A stretch of DNA of 64,000 nucleotides from Candidatus Thiodictyon syntrophicum. GTDB taxonomy: Bacteria; Pseudomonadota; Gammaproteobacteria; Chromatiales; Chromatiaceae. The notes under the pieces are model-generated. The model worked only from the letters and a program-made list of their open reading frames with translations, was not told where the DNA came from and did no database searches. The stretch is taken from contig NZ_CP020370.1 in NCBI RefSeq assembly GCF_002813775.1, positions 2,443,501 to 2,507,500 on the forward strand, given 5' to 3'. Below, in pieces: positions 55,026 to 57,673 of this stretch; position 1 is the stretch's first letter; the number at the start of each line of letters is the position of its first letter. Position numbers and translations under genes: made by a program.

Positions 55026-55544
55026 GGGTTGCTCCGTTTCGTTGTGTCTGCTTGTGTTCAGTTCGCGGTACCGCGCAGTGGTCTTGATTGGTTCCGGCCG
55101 CCGGGAGACAGGACGCTGAGGCTTCAGCGGGTCGACCTCTTATCTGCAAGGTAATCATCGGGATCGCGCAGCAGGGCCGGGGAATCCTCAAACGACACTG
55201 TACTGCCGCGAGGGGTTGGCGACGGCTCTTGCGAGGCCAAACCTGCTCTCCTTCCAATGCCGTTAAGTCAAGCGCGAGGCGGTCCGGCGGGCGTCTCGTT
55301 CCCACGCAGGAGCACTCCACCTTATACAGAAGTCCGTAAGTATCTGTTTTTACGAGCTTCGTCACGCGTATCAAAAAGTGCCGTCACATCATATAATCAT
55401 AGACTTACGTTGAGCCGGTGACACTTGTGTATAACGAAGAGCGCAGGAGCGTGGGAGCAAGCGTGGCTTAACTTGACGGCATTGGGTTTCAAGCCACAGC
55501 TTCCACAAAATTTTAAGAAAGACATTTCGTGGGGATACCGTAGG
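55026..55544. other. Gene-free left edge of the AT-richer island
   Basis: About 520 bases with no credible gene. The sequence changes from GC-rich near 55100 to AT-rich by 55350 (for example ATCATATAATCATAGAC at about 55387-55403). No repeat of the window's other families is recognised here. Confidence 0.5.
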
Positions 55545-55767
55545 GTCTGTCCAGAATAGCACTGACTTAAGCCGCGGCACTGACAAATTAGCCAATTACA
55601 GAAGGGTCGACAAGCAGCCACGTGGGCGGAGGCGGCATTGTCGCGCTGTTTCCCAGCTCTTAGCCGGTCCGGAGCTGGTTTTTCGCTCGCATCTCCGCAT
55701 CGCAACCGATTGTTTCTATTAAGCTTGCGGCTTAAGTCAGTGCCATTCGGTACTGACCCCTTTTCCC
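55545..55767. mobile_element. MITE-like element with terminal inverted repeats, left copy
   Basis: Left end AGAATAGCACTGACTTAAGC, right end TAAGTCAGTGCCATTCGGTA then CTGACCCCTTTT. The interior contains GGTTTTTCGCTCGCATCTCC and GCATCGCAACCGATTGTTTC. The same ends and interior, inverted, form 56287-56512. It encodes no transposase. Left-end bases beyond AGAATAG are diverged (TAGGGTCTGTCC). Confidence 0.8.
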
Positions 55768-55811
55768 CCCTTTCGATTTTTGGCGAGATCGTGGCTATTG
55801 CAGACTCGCAA

Positions 55812-56057
55812 CTAGGCGGCTTGTCTTTCAGAATGAAAGGCAAGCATGCTTTCAATGCTCAAATGGTAGTCCAGATCGGGCCACTCGATGCCGGTGCCAT
55901 GACAGATGAAGACACAATTCTTCAGTTCACGCATGGTCGCCGACTGGAGATCGGTATACCACAGCATCGGGGTCGAGATGATTCTGCCATCCTCCAACTC
56001 GACATGAAGGAAGCGATCATCGAAGTGGACAGCTTTACCTTTGACGGAACCAGTCAT
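55812..56057 (-). CDS. DUF2442 domain protein
   Basis: 81 residues from ATG 56057: SVKGKAVHFDDRFLHVELED, GRIISTPMLWYTDLQSATMR and the DUF2442 ending. DUF2442 genes are very often paired with DUF4160 genes; the pair is discussed as a putative toxin-antitoxin-like module without a demonstrated mechanism. The start overlaps the 3' end of the DUF4160 gene by 23 bases, so the two are co-translated. Lower GC than core genes. Confidence 0.85.
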   Translation of the reverse strand: MTGSVKGKAVHFDDRFLHVELEDGRIISTPMLWYTDLQSATMRELKNCVFICHGTGIEWPDLDYHLSIESMLAFHSERQAA

Positions 56058-56268
56058 CCCATGTTGCCTCGAATGCATCGTTGTTTTCTCGAATGATCTG
56101 AAGGGCCTTCATCAGGTCTTGCGGTTTCATGAAGTTGCTGACGACGCGAAAAGTTGAAAGTTCAACTTTCGCATAGTCCTCCGCCTTCGCCACATGGACA
56201 TGCTTCGGCTCGTGCTCGTTGGCATAAAAGAAAAACTTGAAGCCGTCTCTTAGAAGCAATGTCGGCAT
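56035..56268 (-). CDS. DUF4160 domain protein
   Basis: 77 residues: MPTLLLRDGFKFFFYANEHE, PKHVHVAKAEDYAKVELS and the helical tail MKPQDLMKALQIIREN. This is the complete DUF4160 domain, with its conserved HxPxHVHV-like segment (EHEPKHVHV). First gene of the DUF4160-DUF2442 pair, which is bracketed on both sides by inverted copies of one MITE-like element. Confidence 0.88.
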   Translation of the reverse strand: MPTLLLRDGFKFFFYANEHEPKHVHVAKAEDYAKVELSTFRVVSNFMKPQDLMKALQIIRENNDAFEATWDDWFRQR

Positions 56269-56286
56269 AGTCTATGGCTCACACAG

Positions 56287-56512
56287 AAAAGGGTACTGAC
56301 CCGAATAGCACTGACTTAAGCCGAAAGCATCGCAGAAACAATCGGTTGCGATGCGGCGAAGCGAGCGAAAAACCGTTGCGGACCAGGCCGGAGCGAGGAA
56401 ACATCCCGGAAAATGGCGCTTCCACTCAAGCGACTGCTTGGCGACCATCCTGTAAACCACTGAATTGCAACGCCGCAGCTTAAGTCAGTGCCATTCGGTA
56501 CTGACCCCTTTT
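56287..56512. mobile_element. MITE-like element with terminal inverted repeats, right copy (inverted)
   Basis: Left end AAAAGGGTACTGACCCGAAT then AGCACTGACTTAAGCC, right end CTTAAGTCAGTGCCATTCGG then TACTGACCCCTTTT. The interior has GAAACAATCGGTTGCGATGC and GCGAGCGAAAAACC, the reverse complement of the left copy's interior. It ends nine bases before the stop codon of the 277-residue gene. Confidence 0.85.
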
Positions 56513-57541: not shown

Positions 57542-57544
57542 GAT

Positions 57545-57607
57545 AAGGGGCCAGGCTCAATAGAATATGATTGCTCGGTTCCTGCGTTATTGAGCCTGGC
57601 CCCTTTT
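57545..57607. repeat. AAGGGGCCAGGCTCAATA inverted repeat
   Basis: Arms AAGGGGCCAGGCTCAATA (57545-57562) and TATTGAGCCTGGCCCCTT (57588-57605), 18 bases perfect, loop of about 25 bases. It follows the direct-repeat unit and precedes the 3' end of the 207-residue gene; only one copy was seen. Confidence 0.75.
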
Positions 57608-57673
57608 CACTTTTCAGTCGGCCCCTTTTCAGCCAAGCCGCACTGTATCCTCTTACCTGTACCCTATTACCTT

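Follow-up and report, generated by a model that had tools for sequence, protein, structure and literature searches.

Two inverted MITE copies around a DUF4160-DUF2442 gene pair: probable independent insertions into REP-like palindromes

Introduction

Pairs of DUF4160 and DUF2442 genes are known from DhiT/DhiA of Dickeya dadantii, a working type II toxin-antitoxin system in which the toxin gene comes first and the promoter was placed within 100 bp upstream of the toxin start (PMC8198452). The same order, with a DUF4160 toxin gene followed by a DUF2442 antitoxin gene, is found in the Thermus PEM module, where establishment of a plasmid failed when the second ORF was missing (PMC12724237). Small inverted elements around cargo genes have also been described: in TIME-COMPs and integron mobilization units two inverted MITE copies with Tn3-type ends enclose cargo and are served by a transposase in trans, and the accepted mark of a MITE composite that has moved is a set of direct repeats around its outermost ends (PMC13367494). 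A third relevant system is ISRm22 of Sinorhizobium meliloti, which has an IS4-family transposase and inserts into palindromic REPs at or near the axis of the palindrome (PMC1525189).

Here we describe a DUF4160-DUF2442 pair that lies between two inverted MITE copies, E1 and E2, in a stretch of 64,000 nucleotides (the window, G000:C1:2443501-2507500) of the 7.74 Mb, three-contig genome of Candidatus Thiodictyon syntrophicum (G000). A preliminary description of this DNA had suggested that the arrangement is a small composite transposon that moves as a unit. Our comparisons point elsewhere, and we put at roughly 87% the probability that E1 and E2 are independent insertions into REP-like targets around an ordinary toxin-antitoxin pair.

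Results

Both genes of the pair lie on the minus strand. The DUF4160 gene (56035..56268; 77 aa; DhiT-like toxin candidate) is transcribed first and the DUF2442 gene (55812..56078; 88 aa; DhiA-like antitoxin candidate) second, with Pfam E-values of 1.4e-15 and 1e-14 respectively. This is the gene arrangement of DhiTA, including an overlap, although the overlap is 3 nt in dhiTA and 44 nt here (PMC8198452). Against the NCBIfam DhiT model NF048015 the DUF4160 product scores 22.3 bits, below the equivalog cut-off of 100, so that we have a DhiT/DhiA domain pair but not a DhiT equivalog; the invariant core of DUF4160 reads FFFYANEHE..H.H. An AlphaFold2 model of the protein (pLDDT 92) found no convincing match among solved structures and hence offered no clue to what the toxin does biochemically. 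The genome has one DUF4160 copy. Just downstream of DUF4160 there is a DUF2442 gene in 80 of 87 DUF4160 ORFs, and the pairing is therefore independent of the MITE. A consensus scan near the pair returned no promoters or terminators. The idea that the enclosed genes are toxin-antitoxin-like is supported by the domain pair, which is experimentally a toxin-antitoxin system elsewhere (PMC8198452), and we regard them as a putative toxin-antitoxin operon of known kind.

The boundaries of the elements were set by comparison of all copies: the 18-bp ends GAATRGCACTGACTTAAG belong to the element, and the bases outside them vary among copies, yet are the same left and right within one copy. E1 accordingly extends over 55554..55748 (plus strand, 195 bp, ends GAATAGCACTGACTTAAG / GAATGGCACTGACTTAAG) and E2, inverted relative to E1, over 56303..56496 (minus strand, 194 bp). 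The coordinates proposed previously, 55545-55767 and 56287-56512, were too generous in extent, the surplus bases (GGTACTGACCCCTTTT, AGAAAAGGGTACTGACCC) being target sequence and its duplication. An alignment of the two elements, one of them reversed, spans both completely with 78.7% identity over 197 columns (E = 2e-39) and confirms that inverted elements with common ends and interior surround the overlapping genes, and nothing but the DUF2442 and DUF4160 genes lies between them. The 14-mer GCACTGACTTAAGC occurs four times in the window against 0.19 expected, allowing up to 2 mismatches. With a length of 194-195 bp (under the 500 bp usual for MITEs), 18-bp TIRs and only chance ORFs inside, none of them a transposase gene, E1 and E2 are indeed MITE-like in size and structure.

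Six full-length copies of the family are present in G000, two in the window and four outside it (starting near C1:3938970, C1:4261949, C1:6683602 and C3:66109), along with several fragments. Six of the seven congeners searched also carry family copies (G001, G002 and G004-G007), and G003 has none. The genome-wide and congener search called for in the preliminary description has thus produced further copies, and the 19 full-length copies from the genus, with their 11-bp target-site duplication (TSD), are the multiple dispersed copies expected of a MITE. A tree of these 19, with two divergent elements left out, placed E1 with copies from G002, G007, G006 and C1:3938970, and E2 with copies from G001 and G004, both with moderate support (83-89%). 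We also asked whether E1 combines parts of two different copies, but quarter-by-quarter identity, in which G002a/G007a came first or second best nearly throughout, gave no evidence of such a hybrid.

A full-length IS with the same terminal repeats, which had been suggested as something to look for, is located in the same genome at C1:5632328-5633908. This 1581-bp element (L026) has the same 18-bp ends as the MITE, an 11-bp TSD (GGGCCAGGATC) and an open 478-aa DDE transposase that matches DDE_Tnp_1 and the NCBIfam IS4 family model NF033592 (207.6 bits, cut-off 115); broken copies of it are found around C1:414489-419724 and close to C1:4804973. With the same ends, the same TSD length and an open transposase it qualifies as the autonomous partner of the MITE and is a candidate for the transposase that would be needed in trans. 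No similarity was seen between the IS and MITE interiors, and, judging by the shared ends only, the IS4-family transposase would move the MITE in trans.

TSDs were surveyed in the 23 elements whose flanks could be read, among them the 1581-bp IS and a 1272-bp passenger element described below. A perfect 11-bp TSD was found in 13 of the 23 and a perfect match at 8, 9, 10, 12, 13 or 14 bp in none. Mismatched flanks in the remaining elements would be expected from recombination between copies or from decay; in ISRm22, mismatched repeats in some copies were put down to recombination (PMC1525189). E2 has its own perfect TSD, GGTACTGACCC at both flanks: the left one (56292..56302, plus strand) is preceded by target AGAAAAG and lies 24 bp upstream of the DUF4160 start codon, and the right one (56497..56507, plus strand) is followed by target CTTTTCCC. 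E1 has no intact TSD, so its separate insertion is probable rather than seen directly. Its right flank, GGTACTGACCCCTTTTCC... (55749..55770, plus strand), is half of a REP-like palindromic target. Its left flank, GGGTCTGTCCA (55543..55553, plus strand), is 3 edits from GGGTACTGACCC, and since only about 0.4% of random window positions are equally close, it is probably a decayed (or else a replaced) target half; it could be E1's own old TSD.

The bases beyond the element ends belong to the target, which is a REP-like palindrome (AAAAGGGTACTGACCCCTTTT). Sites rebuilt from the perfect-TSD copies are palindromes of type AAAAG-GGGCCAGGCTC or AAAAG-GGTACTGACCC-CTTTT, and the 13 sites together give a consensus of roughly AAAAG-GGNNCWGNNCC-CTTTT. 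As the duplication does not include the AAAAG and CTTTT parts, these must have been there before insertion. The motif is also found unoccupied, for instance as tandem AAAGGGGTCAGTACCCTTT at C1:4798309 and C3:393933, so the insertions fall in a palindromic repeat that exists without them. Like ISRm22, the family thus combines an IS4-family transposase, insertion into palindromic repeats and copies with mismatched repeats; the differences are a TSD of 11 bp here and 6 bp in ISRm22 (PMC1525189), mostly non-autonomous 195-bp copies, another REP-like sequence and no RAYT link found. The genome has nine Y1_Tnp matches, with motif-like sequences near one locus only, and a RAYT link of the target motif was not found at the other eight. 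The family, genus-wide and of an already known kind, has a clear 11-bp TSD and target and may be an undescribed MITE family of IS4 type. Elsewhere in the window, at 57543-57608, two inverted copies of the REP-like target motif stand together, unoccupied and REPIN-like (ATAAGGGGCCAGGCTCAAT ... ATTGAGCCTGGCCCCTTTT). A related element in G004 (L089:1299-1698, contig C306; ends GAATGGCGCTAAGTTAAG) adjoins one of the MITEs of this family, in a target of the GAGCCTGGCCC type, which suggests that related IS4-type families share the target.

The pair was then compared with its counterparts in relatives. G006:C777:765-1262 matches window 55805-56302 at 98% and continues into AGAAAAGGGTACTGACCCTTTTTCCC, with no element. 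The BLAST match breaks off at 56302, where E2's left TSD has its last base, and when the window flanks of E2 are joined, the G006 string is reproduced over about 12 bases past the TSD, save for one difference. G006 therefore has an uninterrupted REP-like site, as occupied by E2, beside a MITE-free pair. Before insertion of E2 the site would have read AGAAAAGGGTACTGACCCCTTTTCCC. In G006 the pair sits in an accessory stretch adjoining rho-trx, at another chromosomal place than in G000, and so the neighbourhoods differ beyond about 12 bp to the right of E2's site. A relative with the pair at the same locus and without either element had been named as grounds for abandoning the composite transposon; G006 provides this in part, its pair being MITE-free but elsewhere on the chromosome. 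After the pair G006 carries a second, open DUF2442 gene, of which the window retains only about the first 35 bp before E1's flank (55770..55804, minus strand; 35 bp aligned to G006:C777:416-450 at 94%). G004 has what is left of a DUF2442 gene, broken by an internal stop and 85% identical over 243 bp. It lies downstream of acnB, at a distance of about 3.6 kb, oriented as in the window and with no MITE next to it, the nearest being a half copy 1.6 kb off in a different target. This MITE-free remnant points the same way as G006, and the MITEs do not account for the pair at two places. GTTAGGC-like strings in G006 prompted us to consider whether the pair might have come from an integron cassette.

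Discussion

The ends, copy number, TSD length and target motif of the family are read directly from its copies. Most likely, E1 and E2 are copies of a non-autonomous MITE family mobilised in trans by an IS4-family IS with matching TIRs; the family prefers REP-like palindromes for insertion and duplicates 11 bp. The DhiTA-type operon would then be passively flanked by E1 and E2 because REP-like sites lay on both sides of it. E2, 24-34 bp upstream of the DUF4160 start, would cut the operon off from its native upstream region and may alter its expression. Such an effect is plausible, as the E2 TSD 24 bp upstream of the start codon falls inside the stretch to which the dhiTA promoter was assigned.

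Had E1, the pair and E2 arrived as one unit with transposase in trans, the locus would resemble the TIME-COMPs, with which it shares two inverted MITE copies around cargo (PMC13367494). Intact 18-bp ends do face outward on the inverted copies, the genome has a transposase source, and the pair stands at different places in G000 and G006. Moreover, all four flanks resemble one target motif, so that an old outer duplication might conceivably survive in the decayed left flank of E1; because target preference makes all flanks alike, the argument from the outer flanks needs care. Nevertheless, these flanks (GGGTCTGTCCA and GGTACTGACCC) are unlike and no direct repeats flank the outermost inverted repeats, whereas E2's own flanks form an identical 11-bp TSD. 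The separate branches of E1 and E2 in the tree and the pre-insertion-type site beside the pair in a relative are likewise observed: the two elements belong to different clades, the G006 copy of the pair, at its other place, is without a MITE, and so is the DUF2442 remnant near acnB in G004. No E1-pair-E2 block was found at a second place, the genome having a single DUF4160 copy and the G006 copy being MITE-free, and at 80 other DUF4160-DUF2442 loci there was no pair of family ends beyond chance-like matches (a few weak matches when up to 4 mismatches were allowed; a control pattern gave 4). Unlike TIME-COMPs, with their Tn3-type ends, the locus has IS4-type ends, no outer direct repeats and divergent E1 and E2. 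On the TSDs, the empty-type site in G006 and the tree, we rejected the composite transposon, and we consider movement of the pair in this manner very improbable. It is equally doubtful that the IS4-family transposase still recognises the outer E1 and E2 ends as one pair and can move a 943-bp unit between REP-like sites; if true, the toxin-antitoxin pair would be cargo of a MITE-bounded composite of IS4 type.

Local copying that produced a duplicated pair, or an inversion between MITEs, would explain why the 22-bp right flanks GGTACTGACCCCTTTTCCCYCC are common to E1 and E2. That flank, however, is target motif and also stands at unoccupied sites; E1 is nearest to the G002/G007 copies (85%) and E2 to the G004/G001 copies (87-88%), while E1 and E2 are only 78% alike; and an inversion would normally break E2's perfect TSD. 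We hold such an origin to be highly improbable. Repeats on both sides of an operon, in a target itself palindromic, could also be regulatory or terminator-type palindromic repeats of that operon rather than mobile elements, but they are sharply defined units of 194-195 bp that carry TSDs, are dispersed through the genus and are absent beside the same genes in G006. The TSDs refute this reading, to which we give almost no weight.

Independent insertion of E1 and E2 would illustrate that target preference alone can produce a false composite transposon, as small genes that happen to lie between two REP-like palindromes will at times be bracketed by elements that home to this kind of site. It would also be a case of MITE insertion directly upstream of a toxin-antitoxin operon.

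More promising as a MITE-type element carrying a passenger is the 1272-bp element at L025:550-1821 (G000:C1:2982349-2983620), which shares its 18-bp ends with the family and is flanked by a perfect 11-bp TSD (GGTACTGACCC). It contains a frameshifted gene, seemingly of Rpn/DUF4351 type (weak Pfam match only), and its inner unit (112-1207) is also present in other congeners, there lacking these ends. At L027 (G000:C1:4258800-4264400) an IS4-type fragment and MITEs, one of which an IS1-type IS has interrupted, cluster with several small genes of toxin-antitoxin type (ParE-like, HicB-like), making this the second locus at which a family MITE and such genes adjoin. About 70 bp to the left of E1, window 55254-55485 holds a further MITE-like element with 20-bp ends CCAATGCCGTTAAGTCAAGC; no TSD was seen by eye, and parts of it are repeated in G005, G006 and G007.
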